The notes beneath the pieces are model-generated. The model was not told where the DNA came from. It did no database searches and saw only the letters and a program-made list of their open reading frames with translations. 64,000 nucleotides of DNA, from assembly GCF_015169395.1 (NCBI RefSeq), contig NZ_CP063458.1:2542001-2606000 (forward strand), written 5' to 3'. Made by a program: the position numbers and the translations under genes. Each line of letters starts with the position of its first letter. The first letter of the stretch is position 1. Of the stretch, positions 7,716 through 14,810 are shown in pieces. The DNA is from Humisphaera borealis. GTDB lineage: Bacteria; Planctomycetota; Phycisphaerae; Tepidisphaerales; Tepidisphaeraceae.

Positions 7716-7802
7716 GGTGCCACGGGTCGCCGGTACTCCGGAGACCCGTGTCTTGGCACGACTCGCGCACGGGTCTGCGGAGTACCGCCGACCCGTGGCA
7801 CC
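7716..7802. repeat. 87-nt nested palindrome, family D copy 1
   Basis: Arms 7716-7740 and 7778-7802 pair over 25 bp with one mismatch, and inside them AGACCCGTG/CACGGGTCT pairs again. The core contains GGTACTCCG. An element of identical length and near-identical sequence lies at 63832-63918, and relatives lie at 36736-36829 and 45881-45975. It sits between the ABC-F and lgt-like genes. Confidence 0.85.
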
Positions 7803-7831
7803 GAAGACGTTCGCATCGCGGTGGATCCCGC

Positions 7832-8653
7832 ATGACCTTCCCCGTCTACATCCACCTGTTCGGCGTGACGCTTCACCCGCACACGGTGTTTGAGATTCTG
7901 GCATACGGGTTGGGGTCGCGGCTGTTCTTCTTCCTTCGCAAACGCTCCGCCGGCCGCCAGCCGTCACTACCGATCGAGAAGACGCTCCTGCTCCTCTGCG
8001 GCTGTACCGTCGGGGCGCTGCTGGGCGCCAAGCTGCTGGCGCTGGCCGAGAGCTGGCGAGAGATCTCCGCCGCCGCCGCGGCCAACCCGTTGGCCTGGGT
8101 CGCCGGCAAAACGATCGTCGGCGGCATCCTCGGCGGGTGGATCGGCGTCGAGATCGCCAAGAAGCTGACCGGCGTCCGCAAATCCACCGGCGACACGTTT
8201 GTCTTCCCCCTCATCCTCGGCATCGCGATCGGCCGCGTCGGGTGCTTTCTGACCGGGCTCGAAGACCACACGCACGGTAACGCGAACGCCCTGCCGTGGG
8301 CGGTCGATTTCGGCGACGGCGTCCGCCGACATCCGACACAGCTCTACGAAATTGCCTACTTGGCGACCCTCGCGATCGTGCTGGTGCTGCCTCCGGTGCG
8401 ACGGCTGTGGTCGGTGCCGGCCGGCCAGGTTCAGTCCGGTCGATTGTTTCGCCTGTTTGTCATCGGATACCTGTCGTTCCGGTTTGCGATCGAGTTCATC
8501 AAGCCGACCGACAAGACGCTGTTGGGCCTGAGCGCGATACAATGGGCGAGCCTGCTGGCGGTAGGATGGACCGCCGTGCAGTTGCTGCGTAAGCGGTCGC
8601 CGCAGGCGATCGATTCTTCGCCGTCGGCGATCGAAAGGGGTGCCGCTTCGTGA
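7832..8653 (+). CDS. Prolipoprotein diacylglyceryl transferase-like protein
   Basis: 273 residues, inner membrane with about 7 helices. The ATG at 7832 (MTFPVYIHLFGVTLHPHTVFEILAYGLG) is chosen because the 28 codons upstream of it come from the palindrome. The Lgt fold is recognisable: an N-terminal helix with Tyr, a central GRVGCFLTG block (about 145), PWAVDF, RHPTQLYE, and a C-terminal FAIEFIKP block. True Lgt has R-x-G-N-F-x-N-x-E; here Asn is Cys, and the following loop reads LEDHTHGN. It may therefore be a paralogue that acts on another lipid acceptor. The stop overlaps the next start. Confidence 0.75.
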   Translation: MTFPVYIHLFGVTLHPHTVFEILAYGLGSRLFFFLRKRSAGRQPSLPIEKTLLLLCGCTVGALLGAKLLALAESWREISAAAAANPLAWVAGKTIVGGILGGWIGVEIAKKLTGVRKSTGDTFVFPLILGIAIGRVGCFLTGLEDHTHGNANALPWAVDFGDGVRRHPTQLYEIAYLATLAIVLVLPPVRRLWSVPAGQVQSGRLFRLFVIGYLSFRFAIEFIKPTDKTLLGLSAIQWASLLAVGWTAVQLLRKRSPQAIDSSPSAIERGAAS

Positions 8654-9063
8654 AGGACGAATCCGATCCGACGCCGGGCTATGATGTGAGCGGCCCGCCG
8701 GAAAAGCCGCGCCGTCCCAAGCCGGCCTACCCGCTTCCGTACGCAAGAACGCGAGACTACGAACCCGACCGACTGCCGTTCGGCTGGTCGCCTTCGAGTC
8801 ATTTCCTGGCGGGGATGGGATTGGGGGTGCTCATGTCGGTGGTCGCCTGGCGGACCGCGTATCAGTTCAAGCTCATCGGCACCGACGGCAGCCTCTGGAT
8901 TGCCATGGCTCTTGTGATGTTCGCGGTCAAGCTCACCATCGGCGTGGCGGGCCTGTGCCTACCGTGGTGGCGGATGGCCGGAGCTGGGATGCTGACGTCC
9001 ATTTCATTGGGATCACTCATCTGCGGTGGCGCGTTGTTCGCGACGGTGTGCGGCGGACGATAG
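8650..9063 (+). CDS. Small membrane protein, tandem family member 1
   Basis: 137 residues from a GTG that overlaps the TGA of the Lgt-like gene, so probably translationally coupled. A 55-residue hydrophilic N-terminus (Pro-rich, ends PLPYARTRDYEPD) precedes three predicted helices. The last carries RMAGAGMLTSISLGSL. The next two genes share this motif and layout, so the three look like tandem duplicates. Function unknown. Confidence 0.65.
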   Translation: MKDESDPTPGYDVSGPPEKPRRPKPAYPLPYARTRDYEPDRLPFGWSPSSHFLAGMGLGVLMSVVAWRTAYQFKLIGTDGSLWIAMALVMFAVKLTIGVAGLCLPWWRMAGAGMLTSISLGSLICGGALFATVCGGR

Positions 9064-9077
9064 GAACGGGAACGTCA

Positions 9078-9506
9078 ATGAATGACCCACCTGACAGCGC
9101 TCCTGCGACCTCCGCCGACCCTATTCCACCCGAGCCGCCATCGGTCGAATCATTTGAACCCGTCAGCGCCGAGATCGTTGAATCACAGAGGGAATCTCAC
9201 CCGCTGGACTACGCCCCTCGTCCCGAACGTGTCATGATCGAGCGGATCGACCCCGATGACCTTGTGGGGCCGGGGGGATCCTCGTGGAGCTTCTTCCTGG
9301 GCATGATGGCGGCGTTTGTATTCGGATACTTGGCGTTCGCGATCCCGGGGGGCTCGTTTGCGTTGTTCAGCGTCCTGCTGATAACCCCACCACTGGTGAT
9401 GCTCGGCTGGCGGACGACACGAATGGTCGGCGCCGGATGGCTCACCAGTGTCGCCCTGACGGGGCTCACCGTGATGGCGATCTGTGGCGACCACAAATGG
9501 TCATGA
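9078..9506 (+). CDS. Small membrane protein, tandem family member 2
   Basis: 142 residues. The ATG at 9078 is preferred to an in-frame ATG at 8955 that lies inside the previous gene; AACGGGA lies just upstream. A Pro/Glu-rich N-terminus of about 70 residues containing HPLDYAPRPER is followed by three helices, the last with RMVGAGWLTSVALTGL. HPLDYAPR here and PLHYAPVYP in the next gene are matching pieces of the tail. Function unknown. Confidence 0.65.
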   Translation: MNDPPDSAPATSADPIPPEPPSVESFEPVSAEIVESQRESHPLDYAPRPERVMIERIDPDDLVGPGGSSWSFFLGMMAAFVFGYLAFAIPGGSFALFSVLLITPPLVMLGWRTTRMVGAGWLTSVALTGLTVMAICGDHKWS

Positions 9507-9568
9507 TCCGGGTAGCCTTCCGCGATACCGTGCCGAACCGACAACAGGCCGCGTGAACGAAGCAGCCG

Positions 9569-10051
9569 ATGAACAATGATCCCAACAACGACGCCGCTGA
9601 GCTAAACGCCACTGATCCGGCAGACCCTCTGCCGTCCGAACCGATTCCGGCAGAGACGCTCGAAGCCGACAACAGCGACGCGACCGCGAAACTAAGGCAG
9701 TCGACCCCACTGCACTACGCACCTGTTTATCCGGCACAAAAAGGCGGTTCGATTGGACAGCTCGGCTATGCCCGCCCGGGCACGTACCGCCGCAAGAACG
9801 AAGGCTACCCCGCCGCCATGTTCGTCCTGGGGATGGTGGCCCCCTTCGTGTACGGCTGGCTGGCGTTTGTCGTACTCAGCAGTTTCCGCGCCGACATCGG
9901 CGGTGCCCTCGTGGCATTGTTCGTTCTCGTCGTCGCGCCGGCCGTGATGTTCGGCTTTCGGGCGACGCGCATGGTAGGGGCCGGCTGGATTACCAGCCTG
10001 GCGTTGGTGTTCCTGATACTGCTCGCCTTGTGCGGCGGTGCATTTCGATGA
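9569..10051 (+). CDS. Small membrane protein, tandem family member 3
   Basis: 160 residues. A hydrophilic N-terminus (PLPSEPIPAETLEADN, then TPLHYAPVYPAQ) is followed by three helices: about 90-108, 112-133 and 138-158. The last has RMVGAGWITSLALVFL. Layout and motifs match the two genes before it. It lies 62 nt from the previous member and 26 nt before the radical-SAM gene, so possibly one transcription unit. Confidence 0.65.
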   Translation: MNNDPNNDAAELNATDPADPLPSEPIPAETLEADNSDATAKLRQSTPLHYAPVYPAQKGGSIGQLGYARPGTYRRKNEGYPAAMFVLGMVAPFVYGWLAFVVLSSFRADIGGALVALFVLVVAPAVMFGFRATRMVGAGWITSLALVFLILLALCGGAFR

Positions 10052-10077: not shown

Positions 10078-11547
10078 ATGCCAGACCGCGACTACATCTT
10101 CTACGAACTCACCAGCAGCCTCTGCGCCACCTGCCTGCGCAAAGTCGAAGCAAAAGTCATCCTGCAAGACGGCAAGGTGTTCCTGCACAAATGGTGCCCG
10201 GAGCATCGGTTTCAGAAGGTGCTCATCAGCACCGACGCCGAGTACTACAAGCTCTGCCGCCAGACGCTCAAGCCGTCGCAGGTGCCGCTGCGGTTCAACA
10301 CGCCGATCAAGTACGGCTGCCCGTACGACTGCGGGCTCTGCCCGGATCACGAGCAGCATTCGTGCCTCGCGATCATCGAAGTCACCGACCAGTGCAACCT
10401 CACCTGCCCGATCTGCTACAGCGAGTCGTCGCCGCAGCGGCCGACGCATCGGTCGCTCGAACAAATCGAGTTCATGCTCGACTGCGTCGTGCGGAACGAA
10501 GGAGAGCCCGACGTCGTGCAGATCTCCGGCGGCGAGCCGACGATCCATCCGCAGTTGTGGGACATCCTCGACGCGGCCAAGCGGCGGCCGATCAAGCATC
10601 TGATGCTGAACACCAACGGCATCCGCATCGCCGGCGACGCCGACTTCGCCCGGCGGCTGAAGGACTACCAGCCCGGCTTTGAGGTCTATCTGCAGTTTGA
10701 TTCGCTCCGCGCCAAACCGCTGCTTGAGCTGCGCGGGCAGGACCTGCGCGACGTCCGCCGCCGGGCGATCGACCGGCTGAATGATCTCAACCTCAGCACC
10801 AACCTGGTCGTCACGCTGAAGAAGGGCCTGAACGACGACGAGATCGGCGAGATTCTCGATTACGCCGTCGCGCAGCGGTGCGTGCGCGGCGTGACGTTCC
10901 AGCCGATCCAGTCCGCCGGGCGGCTGGAGCAGTTCGACCCCGCTACCGACCGCCTGACGCTCGGCGAAGTGCGGCAGCAGATCCTCCGGCAGTCGTCGCT
11001 GTTCCGCCCGCAGGATGTGATCCCAGTGCCGTGCCACCCGGATTGCCTCGCAATGGCGTACGCGCTGAAGTGGAACGGGCAGGTGCTGCCGATCAGCGGC
11101 GAAGTAGACCCGAGCATCTTCCTGCAGACCGAAGGCAGCACGATCGTTTACGAACGAAACCCGGCGCTGAAGGAACGGCTTTATACGATGTTCGCCAACT
11201 GCGGCTGCGAACCGCCGGCCGAGGGATCGCCGACCAATGGCGTATCACTCAAGCAGTTGCTCTGCTGCCTGCCGACGGTGCCGCTGCCCGACTCGGTCGG
11301 CTACGAGAACCTGTTCCGCGTGATCATCATGCAGTTTCTCGACCCCCATAACTTCGATGTGCGCAGCGTGAAGAAGAGCTGCGTCCATATCGTCCACACC
11401 GACGGGCGGATCATCCCGTTCGATACGTTCAACCTGTTTTATCGGGACGGCAGGGAGCGCGTGCTGGAGGAGCTGCGCTCGGGCCGAGGGGCAGAATCGC
11501 CAGAAAGGCTCGTCAGCCTTACTCGTTCGGCAGCACCGGAATACTGA
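10078..11547 (+). CDS. Radical-SAM protein resembling archaeal tetraether lipid synthase (Tes)
   Basis: 489 residues. The radical-SAM cluster motif is C106-x3-C110-x2-C113 (CNLTCPICY), followed by QISGGEPT (SAM binding) and LNTNGIRIA. The N-terminus carries extra Cys: C16 and C19 (SLCATC), C40 (KWCPEHR) and CPYDCGLCPDH (C81, C85, C88), as in the Tes/MJ0619 family, whose extra cysteines bind more metal centres. The end (KKSCVHIVHTDG, IPFDTFNLFYRDG) also matches. Archaeal Tes joins the ends of two lipid chains. By analogy this enzyme may couple alkyl chains in membrane lipids, which is inference. It overlaps the next, convergent gene by 29 bp. Confidence 0.85.
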   Translation: MPDRDYIFYELTSSLCATCLRKVEAKVILQDGKVFLHKWCPEHRFQKVLISTDAEYYKLCRQTLKPSQVPLRFNTPIKYGCPYDCGLCPDHEQHSCLAIIEVTDQCNLTCPICYSESSPQRPTHRSLEQIEFMLDCVVRNEGEPDVVQISGGEPTIHPQLWDILDAAKRRPIKHLMLNTNGIRIAGDADFARRLKDYQPGFEVYLQFDSLRAKPLLELRGQDLRDVRRRAIDRLNDLNLSTNLVVTLKKGLNDDEIGEILDYAVAQRCVRGVTFQPIQSAGRLEQFDPATDRLTLGEVRQQILRQSSLFRPQDVIPVPCHPDCLAMAYALKWNGQVLPISGEVDPSIFLQTEGSTIVYERNPALKERLYTMFANCGCEPPAEGSPTNGVSLKQLLCCLPTVPLPDSVGYENLFRVIIMQFLDPHNFDVRSVKKSCVHIVHTDGRIIPFDTFNLFYRDGRERVLEELRSGRGAESPERLVSLTRSAAPEY

Positions 11548-12061
11548 TGCCGCGCGGCGTGGGCGGCGCGTGCTCGACCGCCAGTTCAGGGACGTCTTCC
11601 AGGACCTCCACCATGGCGATCTCGTCGCAGCCGTCGCGCTTGGGGCAACGGACACAGTCGCTCCAGACTTTCAGCGGCAGGGTTTCCTTGTCTACCACCA
11701 CGAAGCCGAGCTTTTCGAAGAAGCGCTGCTCGTACGTCAGCGACATCAGCTTGCGGATGCGAAGGCGGCGCGCCTCGTCAACCGTCCACTGCACGAGCTT
11801 GGAGCCGATGCCCTTGCCGCGCTGGCTCTGATCGACCGCCAGCGACCGCACCTCGGCCAGGTCAGCCCAGATGATGGTCAGCGCGACGCAGCCGACGACC
11901 TGCGGCCGGCCGTCGGGGCCGGCAATCTCGTAAACGCCGAAGTCACGCAGGTCTTCGTAAAGCTGCGCGAGGCTCTTGAACAACATCCGGCCGAACTCCG
12001 CGTGGGAGTTGATGATCTGCTGGATGCGGGGAACGTCAGTGATGTTGGCGGGTCGGATCAT
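11519..12061 (-). CDS. GNAT N-acetyltransferase, short ArgA-like
   Basis: 180 residues, one GNAT domain. The acetyl-CoA loop is QRGKGIGSKL (about 81-90), after VRSLAVD; RFFEKLGFVVV is the usual late strand-helix. The following KVWSDCVRCPKRDGC segment, with three Cys, is typical of the short stand-alone N-acetylglutamate synthase-like proteins that lack the kinase-like domain. Probable role: first step of arginine synthesis, though other amine substrates are possible. No arginine genes adjoin it. Convergent and overlapping with the radical-SAM gene. Confidence 0.75.
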   Translation of the reverse strand: MIRPANITDVPRIQQIINSHAEFGRMLFKSLAQLYEDLRDFGVYEIAGPDGRPQVVGCVALTIIWADLAEVRSLAVDQSQRGKGIGSKLVQWTVDEARRLRIRKLMSLTYEQRFFEKLGFVVVDKETLPLKVWSDCVRCPKRDGCDEIAMVEVLEDVPELAVEHAPPTPRGISIPVLPNE

Positions 12062-12197
12062 GTTGCTTTTCCGCGATCATAGCACCCCCGACACAATCCC
12101 TCGCCGGATCACGACGATGAATCAATCGGCGATTGCTGATACTTTATCGGCCAGGCGATCGAATCATCTCATACGACTTGGCGGAAGGAGTGTTCAG

Positions 12198-13655
12198 ATG
12201 GTCCGGCGAAAAAGAGCATGGCTTCTCGCGAACGCGGCAACAGTACTGGCAACGGCAGTCGCCGCAGGCGGCACGGCGGGCGCCTCAGAAGCCCAATCCT
12301 CGACCGACGTCGCAGACAATCGGCGACTGATCGAGGAGATTCAGGGCCTCCAGGAACGCATTGCCGAACTCGAACGGCGCAGCGCGACGAACGCGAGGGA
12401 TTCGCAGCCTCACGCCGACCTCGCCGACGCGCATCGCGTGGACCGCACGATTGCCGACGTAGTCGCCGACGCCGAGCGTCGCAGCCACCTGTCTCTGGAA
12501 GGGTTCACCGCCGGCTACAGCGGCGGACGATTCGTGATCCAGAGCGAGGACGGGAACTACCTTTTCAGCCCGAGCGCCCTGGTTCAGTTCCGCTATGTCG
12601 CCAATTTTGCCGACGGCGTCAGCTCCGACGGCGACGGGTCCTTTGAATCGGGCTTCGAGGTCCGCCGGCTTCGACTCATGTTCGAAGGCAACTTCGGCTC
12701 GCCAAACCTGTCCTACTTTTTCCAGTGGAATACCGGCGTCAATGGCGGCGCTTTGGTGATGGATCAGGCGTGGGTGCGCTATGCGTTCGCCGGCACACCA
12801 TTCGCCGTGCGGTTCGGCGCGTACGTCAACGGCTGGGACCACGAAACGGCCGTCAACATCGGCAGGCAGTTGGCCGTCGATCGGTCCGTGGTGAACTACG
12901 TCTTCTCGACCGGCGTGACCGGCGTCGAGAACTATGTCCAGGGGATCGAGTTGCAGTATCAGGCGGTTGATGAGTGGCGGGCGAGCGTGATGCTCCACGA
13001 CGGATACCTCTCGCGCAACACCAACTTTCAAAACCAGGCGGCCACCGCACCGGCGATCGGGATCGTCAATCCCGGTGGCGGCACCGCCGGCCGATTCGAA
13101 TACAAGCTCGCCGGCGACTGGCGCGATTACACCGACTTCACCGCCCGCGGGACGAAAAAGGACCTGCTGGTGGTCGGCGGCGGATTCAACTTCGACACCG
13201 CCGACAACCTCAATGCCCTCATGTACACCGCCGACGTGCAATGGGAACCGTCTTCGGTGCGGGGCCTGAGCGTTTACGCGGCGTTCGTCGGGATGTCGCG
13301 CGACTTCCGATCGGTCCCCGCCGGCCAGACCGGCTCGCCCAACGACTGGGGCTTTGTCGCCCAGGCGGGGTACGCGCTTTCGCCTGCATGGGAAGTGTTC
13401 GGCCGCTACAGCTTCACGAAACTCGACGACGCCGGCCCCGGCACACTCGGCAACGCGGCACGCGTGAATGACACAATTCACGAGATTGCCGCGGGCGTGA
13501 ATTACTACCTGATGGACCACGCGGCGAAGTTTTCGCTCGATGTCCTGTTCCTGCCGGAAGGGTCGCCGCTCGACATGCCCGGGATCGGGATCATCGCGCA
13601 GCCGACGGCAGACCCACAGGCGGCGATCCGGGCGCAATTTCAGTTGGCGATCTGA
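12198..13655 (+). CDS. OprP-like outer-membrane porin
   Basis: 485 residues. The ATG at 12198 follows GGAAGGAG at 12183-12190, a strong ribosome site. A signal peptide (about 1-30, ends GASEAQ) is followed by a coiled coil (NRRLIEEIQGLQERIAELER, about 38-58), which may trimerise or bind peptidoglycan. A beta-barrel of the phosphate-selective porin O/P family then begins near FTAGYSGGRFVIQSEDG and includes FEVRRLRLMFEG. It lies 117 nt upstream of an SsuA-like binding protein, which suggests it lets the transporter's anionic substrate cross the outer membrane. Substrate is inferred. Confidence 0.85.
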   Translation: MVRRKRAWLLANAATVLATAVAAGGTAGASEAQSSTDVADNRRLIEEIQGLQERIAELERRSATNARDSQPHADLADAHRVDRTIADVVADAERRSHLSLEGFTAGYSGGRFVIQSEDGNYLFSPSALVQFRYVANFADGVSSDGDGSFESGFEVRRLRLMFEGNFGSPNLSYFFQWNTGVNGGALVMDQAWVRYAFAGTPFAVRFGAYVNGWDHETAVNIGRQLAVDRSVVNYVFSTGVTGVENYVQGIELQYQAVDEWRASVMLHDGYLSRNTNFQNQAATAPAIGIVNPGGGTAGRFEYKLAGDWRDYTDFTARGTKKDLLVVGGGFNFDTADNLNALMYTADVQWEPSSVRGLSVYAAFVGMSRDFRSVPAGQTGSPNDWGFVAQAGYALSPAWEVFGRYSFTKLDDAGPGTLGNAARVNDTIHEIAAGVNYYLMDHAAKFSLDVLFLPEGSPLDMPGIGIIAQPTADPQAAIRAQFQLAI

Positions 13656-13772: not shown

Positions 13773-14810
13773 ATGCCTCGGCTTCGCCTTCCCATCGTTC
13801 TCCTGTCGATCGCATTCCTGGCCGGTAGCATGGCGTGCAAGAAGGATGGCGGGGCCTCCGGCCCGTCCGCCACGCCACCCGCTGAGGTGCGGCTGGGCTA
13901 CTTCGCCAACTTCACCCACGCACAGGCGGTGCTGGGCGTATCTTCGGGCGACTTCGAGAAGGCGGTCGCGCCATCCAAGTTCGGCACCAAGATTTTCAAC
14001 GCCGGCCCTTCGCTGATCGAGGCCCTTTTTGCCGGCGAGATCGACATTGGCTACATCGGCCCTGGTCCTGCTCTCAACGGCTATGCCAAGAGCAAGGGGA
14101 CGAAGGTTCGGATCATCGCCGGCGCGGCGAGCAACGGCGTGCTGATCGTCGCCCGTCCTGACGCGGGGATCAACGACCTTAAAGACCTCGTCGGCAAGAA
14201 GATCGCCACTCCCCAGTTCGGCAACACCCAGGATATCGCCGCCAAGCAGTACTTCCGCGACGTTCTGAAGCAGAAAGACCTGTCCGGTGTGATGGCCGTC
14301 CCCAACGCCGAGCAGGCGTCGATGATGCTTCGCAAGCAGGTGGACGCGGCGTGGGCCCCCGAGCCCTGGGGTTCGCTGTTGATCTCCCAGGCCGGCGCCA
14401 AGCTGATCGCGGAGGAAAAGTCCCTCTGGGCCGAAGGTGCATTCGCGACGACGGTCGTTATCACCACGCCCGAGTTTCTACAGAAACATCCGGATGTGGT
14501 CGAAAAGGTATTGGGCGTTCACGTTCAGTGGACCGACAAACTAAAGGCCGACCCGACTGCTCAGTTGCCCCTGCTTGAGGCGGCACTGTTCAAACTGACG
14601 AACAAGGGTTTGCCCGCGGGCGTGCTGGCGGCATCGGTGAAGACGACCAACTTCACCGAAGACCCGCTGCCCCACACCTTCACGAAGTTCGCCCAGTGGG
14701 CTTACGACCTGGAGTTCTCGAAGGAGAAGACCGATCCGGCGGCGATGTTCGACACGGCGATCGTGAAGAAGGTCCGGGAAAAGGCCACCGCCGCCTCGCC
14801 GGGAAAGTGA
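13773..14810 (+). CDS. ABC transporter substrate-binding protein, SsuA/TauA-like
   Basis: 345 residues with AGAGGAA 7 nt before the ATG. The N-terminal signal ends in SMAC, a weak lipobox, so it is probably a lipoprotein. The NMT1/SsuA fold is seen in VRLGYFANFTHAQA, AGEIDIGYIGPGPAL, NDLKDLVGKKIATPQFGNTQ and VDAAWAPEPWGS, motifs of binding proteins for sulfonates, taurine or nitrate. First gene of a binding protein-ATPase-permease set (SsuA-SsuB-SsuC order) behind a porin. The ligand could be sulfonate, nitrate or a related anion; sequence alone does not decide. Confidence 0.88.
   Translation: MPRLRLPIVLLSIAFLAGSMACKKDGGASGPSATPPAEVRLGYFANFTHAQAVLGVSSGDFEKAVAPSKFGTKIFNAGPSLIEALFAGEIDIGYIGPGPALNGYAKSKGTKVRIIAGAASNGVLIVARPDAGINDLKDLVGKKIATPQFGNTQDIAAKQYFRDVLKQKDLSGVMAVPNAEQASMMLRKQVDAAWAPEPWGSLLISQAGAKLIAEEKSLWAEGAFATTVVITTPEFLQKHPDVVEKVLGVHVQWTDKLKADPTAQLPLLEAALFKLTNKGLPAGVLAASVKTTNFTEDPLPHTFTKFAQWAYDLEFSKEKTDPAAMFDTAIVKKVREKATAASPGK

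Follow-up and report, generated by a model that had tools for sequence, protein, structure and literature searches.

Two enzyme families frame the locus described here. The first is tetraether synthase (Tes, or GDGT-MAS; MJ0619 of M. jannaschii, structures 7TOL and 7TOM, NCBIfam NF045702), which has a four-domain architecture and a rubredoxin site of the form C-X2-C-X20-C-X2-H. The original annotation of MJ0619 as a pterin methylase was discarded in the structural study of the enzyme, which also described binding of bacterial phosphatidic acid and S-C intermediates and proposed that the substrate radical is held at the C-terminal cluster in the form of an S-C bond (PMC9433317). Bacterial Tes homologues have already been reported (PMC8941075, PMC9433317, PMC11868695); such proteins were proposed to act in brGDGT synthesis (PMC8941075), and one survey employed thresholds as loose as E < 1e-30 and 30% identity (PMC11868695). 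Mss, a bacterial membrane-spanning lipid synthase, is a radical enzyme for which a Tes-like architecture has been reported (PMC13274423); we liken it to Tes from its description. The second family is that of the prolipoprotein diacylglyceryl transferase Lgt (5AZB, 5AZC), whose active site lies at the outer face of the membrane (PMC4728403) and whose C-terminus is cytoplasmic (PMC8689077).

Divergent members of both families lie together in the window, by which we mean the whole 64,000-nucleotide stretch of Humisphaera borealis DNA that was analysed. An Lgt paralogue (Lgt2) and a Tes-like radical SAM enzyme (rSAM) flank three small membrane proteins, M1, M2 and M3, on a common strand. The original prediction had placed an Lgt-like gene and three small membrane proteins near rSAM on its strand, and the open reading frames are indeed present at 7748-10051. 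The Lgt2 frame spans 7748-8653 and opens with GTG at 7748; its true start is likely to be at 7832, where the conserved start MTFP is found. The start of M1 and the stop of Lgt2 share 4 bases, and M2 and M3 are 38% identical. All five genes are present in single copy in the complete 7.19 Mb genome, whose nearest relatives are Phycisphaerae and which encodes a separate, ordinary Lgt elsewhere (L084, G000:C1:6753393-6754337). We tentatively read the five genes as a protein-lipidation module with lipid remodelling by rSAM, a reading that we place a little short of probable. Farther downstream, the gene at 11976-13655 has by eye the look of a porin-type outer membrane protein, without a Pfam match, and that at 13773-14810 looks like a gene for an NMT1-like substrate-binding protein; neither is conserved with the module.

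Table. Genes of the Lgt2-rSAM locus, in coordinates of the window.
Feature	Position	Strand	Details
Lgt2, divergent prolipoprotein diacylglyceryl transferase paralogue	7832..8653	+	Pfam LGT, model vs 5AZB, conserved residues
M1, small membrane protein, C-terminal Cys tail ...FATVCGGR	8650..9063	+	Cys codon 9049-9051
M2, small membrane protein, C-terminal Cys tail ...VMAICGDHKWS	9078..9506	+	Cys codon 9483-9485
M3, small membrane protein, C-terminal Cys tail ...LLALCGGAFR	9569..10051	+	Cys codon 10031-10033
rSAM, Tes-like radical SAM enzyme of the Lgt2-linked clade	10078..11547	+	ATG, 489 aa

The relationship of rSAM to Tes was examined at the levels of sequence and predicted structure. The protein comprises an N-terminal HMPTM zinc/rubredoxin (zinc-ribbon) domain and a radical-SAM domain in Pfam, and the PDB contains a single full-length relative, the M. 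jannaschii tetraether synthase (7TOL, E 5e-68; E 1.9e-88 in a profile search). An AF2 model of rSAM (pLDDT 82, pTM 0.85) superposed on 7TOM over 407 residues with a Z of 42.3 and an rmsd of 2.9, as compared with a Z of 19 for MoaA, the next family; the region around C396-C397 was poorly predicted. As modelled, the architecture of rSAM is of the Tes/MJ0619 type. The homology to Tes that had been claimed was thus borne out, together with four metal-site domains.

The identification of rSAM as a Tes itself did not survive. In NCBIfam, rSAM scored 272.7 bits against the Tes model, far under the curated cut-off of 450. Its best-scoring model was that of TrsS, a radical SAM (seleno)protein (NF045646; 317.7 bits), again under the curated cut-off (490); this likeness explains nothing, as we found no described function for TrsS. 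When 248 genomes of the window's class, Phycisphaerae, were scanned with the Tes model, 51 contained a true Tes above the cut-off, all of them in families other than the window's own (L090-L119, L154-L168). The true Tes proteins of the class scored 455-570, as compared with 216-237 for members of the window's family. These above-cut-off proteins are candidates for real bacterial tetraether-type synthases. The tree comprised 70 sequences: 36 Lgt2-linked rows, MJ0619, 19 Phycisphaerae Tes, and others. In this phylogeny, the window's rSAM fell in the Lgt2-linked clade of 36 rows (support 100/99), apart from MJ0619, which clustered with the 19 Tes of the class (87/77); the two sides were split by a branch with support of 96/91, and some of the long branches elsewhere, those of actinobacterial, tandem and haloarchaeal rows, are uncertain.

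The metal-site residues showed what the two groups share and where they part. The rubredoxin site (C9/C12/C33/H36), the N-cluster (C73/C77/C80 and a His) and the CX3CX2C motif are invariant in all 36 clade rows, and Met439 is mostly kept. C338, C455 and C470 of MJ0619, the presumed ligands of the Tes C-terminal cluster, are invariant in 20 Tes sequences but not conserved in the clade, where the residues at these positions are C18/A15, S31/T4 and D22/E14 (36 rows). Tyr459 of Tes is replaced by Ile in 32 of the 36 rows, and the clade has its own invariant cysteines, C319, C396, C397 and C435. The C-terminal blocks had been said to match those of Tes: the block is homologous, but the conserved Tes cysteines are not kept. 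Because rSAM (~30% identical to Tes) scores under the Tes cut-off, falls in its own clade and keeps neither the C-terminal Cys set nor Tyr459, its sequence identifies it as a separate bacterial branch, a distant relative of Tes and not an orthologue. In view of the S-C role proposed for the Tes C-terminal cluster, a re-ligated cluster in rSAM may support chemistry unlike that of Tes.

Could rSAM nonetheless be a bacterial tetraether or diabolic-acid synthase that acts on bulk phospholipids, with Lgt2 and the small proteins as accessory membrane subunits? The Tes fold, the invariant N-terminal and CX3CX2C sites, the binding of phosphatidic acid by Tes and the brGDGT proposal are all consistent with such an activity; the separate clade, the low Tes score and the altered C-terminal residues argue against it. 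Moreover, the rSAM clade occurs in Flavobacterium, Sphingobacterium and Paenibacillus, genera from which we know of no membrane-spanning lipids. A bulk-lipid synthase would also leave unexplained the invariant tail Cys and the loci with Lgt2 only that are described below. We therefore consider this explanation unlikely, and a bulk membrane-spanning lipid the less likely product of rSAM. A literature search for lipid data on Humisphaera returned none. The original prediction of a membrane-lipid module was half right: there is a module, but the Lgt paralogue, the Cys tails and the gene fusions point to protein lipidation rather than to bulk tetraether or diabolic acid. Coupling of lipid chains may nonetheless be the chemistry of rSAM. 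There is a broader caution here: any Tes homologue taken as evidence of tetraethers can mislead, given that true Tes and the Lgt2-linked clade both occur in Phycisphaerae, and surveys at loose thresholds (PMC11868695) could mix the two.

The protein-lipidation reading draws on the recurrence of the module in other genomes. A scan of public genomes yielded 80 loci (81 with the window) from Planctomycetota, Bacillota, Bacteroidota, Cyanobacteriota and others. With the window's Lgt-like protein as BLAST query, an Lgt2 relative was detected in 78 of the 81, or 79 if a split copy in L061 is counted; at L051 and L059, there was no Lgt2 in the stretch examined. This nearly constant Lgt2 context is a further difference from Tes: 15 true Tes loci with flanks had no Lgt relative and no Cys tail (0/7 nearby small membrane ORFs). 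Lgt2 is mostly directly upstream of rSAM, often with overlapping ends, and in three Phycisphaerae genomes, all MAG-based, the two are fused in one ORF (L126, L128, L129), with Lgt2 at ~1-240 and rSAM from ~270 or 306; in one of these genomes, G080, one TGA was counted inside the genome-search match. Among 26 genomes of the window's own family, all 10 with rSAM had Lgt2 and 14 had neither (p 1.2e-5). The order Lgt2, Cys-tail protein, rSAM is also kept at a divergent locus on an M. avium plasmid, where rSAM has 34.6% identity over 63% of the query. Clustering of neighbouring ORFs revealed none that was widely common beyond Lgt2, rSAM and the small membrane proteins. This recurrence supports the proposal that the neighbours form one module with rSAM. 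The enzyme folds are all known; for the three-part module and the rSAM clade, we found no description in the literature searched, which excluded subscription journals and preprints. A role as a defence system was rejected, as PADLOC gave only generic viperin-type radical-SAM matches (40 bits).

Lgt2 genes that lack an adjacent rSAM were informative. All three (G092, G109 and a second copy in G080) adjoin a Cys-tail gene; the second G080 copy has three in tandem, and that of G109 is a 45-aa ORF overlapping the end of Lgt2, the contigs of G092 and G109 being short. Since these loci keep Cys-tail genes, the Cys tail is tied to Lgt2 and not to rSAM.

The small membrane ORFs of the module have almost no common sequence apart from the last helix, and M1-M3 and their counterparts have no Pfam or NCBIfam family. 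That helix consists of a basic K/R patch, ~20 hydrophobic residues, an invariant Cys preceded by small residues, and a short tail; the median distance between the last K/R and the Cys is 20 residues, and the median tail is 8 residues long. By a fixed criterion, 70 of 87 module small membrane ORFs had a Cys tail vs. 16 of 149 flank ORFs, the latter including further tandem members (p 7e-28). This p value overstates the evidence because related loci were counted as independent; more weight should be given to the controls and to the range of phyla represented. Relaxed ORF calling brought the loci with a Cys-tail gene to 71 of 81. Most of the rest stop at contig edges, whereas no such gene was found near L008, L052, L055, L079 or L080 despite adequate flank. 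At six loci of Saccharibacillus and some Paenibacillus (L028, L032, L034, L037, L040, L041), the Cys-tail gene is upstream of Lgt2 and its product has a B-box-like zinc-ribbon N-terminus.

A tail profile searched over the window's genome matched only M1 (E 2e-11), M2 (E 3e-15) and M3 (E 3e-11), the next match having an E of 0.04; a genome-wide sorting tag was rejected on this result. The MYXO-CTERM/myxosortase tags (PMC11980579) are comparable in being C-terminal with an invariant Cys. Their Cys motif precedes the helix, and they occur on dozens of proteins; in the module, the Cys follows the helix, few proteins are linked, and there is no linked protease. The standard lipobox [LVI][ASTVIG][GAS]C fits 1 of 107 tails, and the Cys is near the C-terminus; by lipobox, then, these proteins would not be canonical lipoproteins. 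The basic side is positive in 94% of the Cys tails, and the positive-inside rule predicts that the tail Cys is at the outer face of the membrane. The predicted geometry resembles that of a lipoprotein signal helix shifted to the C-terminus.

Alternatively, the small proteins might serve as structural components of an enzyme complex in the membrane, their Cys ligating metal or forming a disulfide, with an unspecified small lipid as the product. Their diversity outside the last helix is compatible with this role, as are the zinc-ribbon N-termini in some and the presence of only a few per genome. However, they occur as one to three divergent copies in tandem at a locus and have the Cys helix alone in common, a pattern more like that of substrates than of a fixed subunit, and we regard this alternative as rather unlikely.

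If the small proteins are instead substrates for lipidation, Lgt2 is the probable enzyme. It scored 91 bits against Pfam LGT and 42 bits against TIGR00544 (cut-off 118.9), and its AF2 model superposed on 5AZB with a Z of 13.4 and an rmsd of 4.7 over 239 residues. Lgt2 thus shares with Lgt the fold and the signature motif. The equivalents of E. coli R143, Y235 and R239 are invariant in 43 of 43 Lgt2 sequences, and E202 and E243 (or Asp) are also kept. Other positions differ: His103 of the HGGL motif is Val in 32 sequences, Ala in 5 and other residues in the remainder, but His in none of the 43; Y26 is His in all 43; and Y30 is Glu/Asp. Lgt2 also differs from Lgt in being a paralogue that stands beside an ordinary Lgt and is tied to C-terminal Cys helices rather than N-terminal lipoboxes. 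In the ordinary Lgt of the window's genome, the essential His103 is replaced by Tyr and Asn146 by Cys; loss of H103 alone is therefore no proof that Lgt2 is inactive.

The missing His103, the existence of Lgt2-rSAM fusions and the S-C intermediates of Tes might suggest that the direct target of rSAM is the tail Cys or its peptide (e.g., for formation of a Cys-alkyl carbon-sulfur bond), with Lgt2 as a lipid-presenting scaffold, but this appears quite improbable: Cys tails stay beside Lgt2 where rSAM is not found, the tail Cys and rSAM are predicted to be on opposite sides of the membrane, and Lgt2 keeps the arginines that bind PG.

We thus return to protein lipidation by Lgt2 with lipid remodelling by rSAM. 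In this mechanism, Lgt2 would bind a phospholipid via its retained arginines and transfer a glycerolipid to the thiol of the tail Cys, so that the membrane protein would carry a lipid at its C-terminal end. The action of Lgt2 on the tail Cys is probable; we infer it from the predicted location of that Cys at the outer face, where Lgt works, and from the geometry like that of a signal helix. rSAM would sit on the cytosolic side at the Lgt2 C-terminus, a placement that in the fusions agrees with the cytoplasmic C-terminus of Lgt (PMC8689077). Its 5'-deoxyadenosyl radical would attack the hydrocarbon chain of the Cys adduct lipid or of the donor lipid, and the enzyme would couple or otherwise modify that chain. 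That rSAM acts on a lipid chain in a pathway shared with Lgt2 is possible, and we propose it with reserve.

Several lines of evidence favour this scheme. The three parts are linked across phyla, with Lgt2 and rSAM sometimes occurring as one polypeptide; the signal-like last helix of the small proteins tracks Lgt2 even without rSAM; and the rSAM model matches the lipid-binding Tes. Against it stand the Val of Lgt2 at the essential His103 of Lgt, although an invariant His occupies the position of Tyr26, the poor fit of the tail to a standard lipobox, the five well-flanked loci without a Cys-tail gene, and the putative re-ligation of the rSAM C-terminal cluster. For rSAM and Lgt2 to act on one adduct, the lipid chain must reach across the membrane, as the Cys is predicted to be outside and rSAM cytosolic. 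In a more specific and doubtful version, Lgt2 lipidates the outer-end Cys and rSAM joins that lipid to another, producing a membrane-spanning or cross-linked lipid anchor.

If the scheme is correct, a dedicated Lgt paralogue together with a radical enzyme serves in several bacterial phyla to lipidate membrane proteins at the C-terminal end, a process that is in none of the family models used here; culturable Flavobacterium, Sphingobacterium and Paenibacillus would be among the bacteria concerned. The module also lends itself to gene deletion tests in laboratory strains.

Other relatives of rSAM were noted in different surroundings. At two Phycisphaerae loci (L133, L137), related radical SAM genes lie in tandem as pairs without Lgt2; these genes form a separate clade. 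A plasmid of Mycolicibacterium vanbaalenii (L141) encodes a relative that is 40% identical to rSAM, with no Lgt2 alongside; its neighbours are a methyltransferase, CcdA, a disulfide oxidoreductase and a second radical SAM gene. On plasmids of Haloarcula and Salinirubellus (L142, L143), a Tes/TrsS-like radical SAM gene lies directly before a methyltransferase gene, beside DUF547 and redoxin genes.
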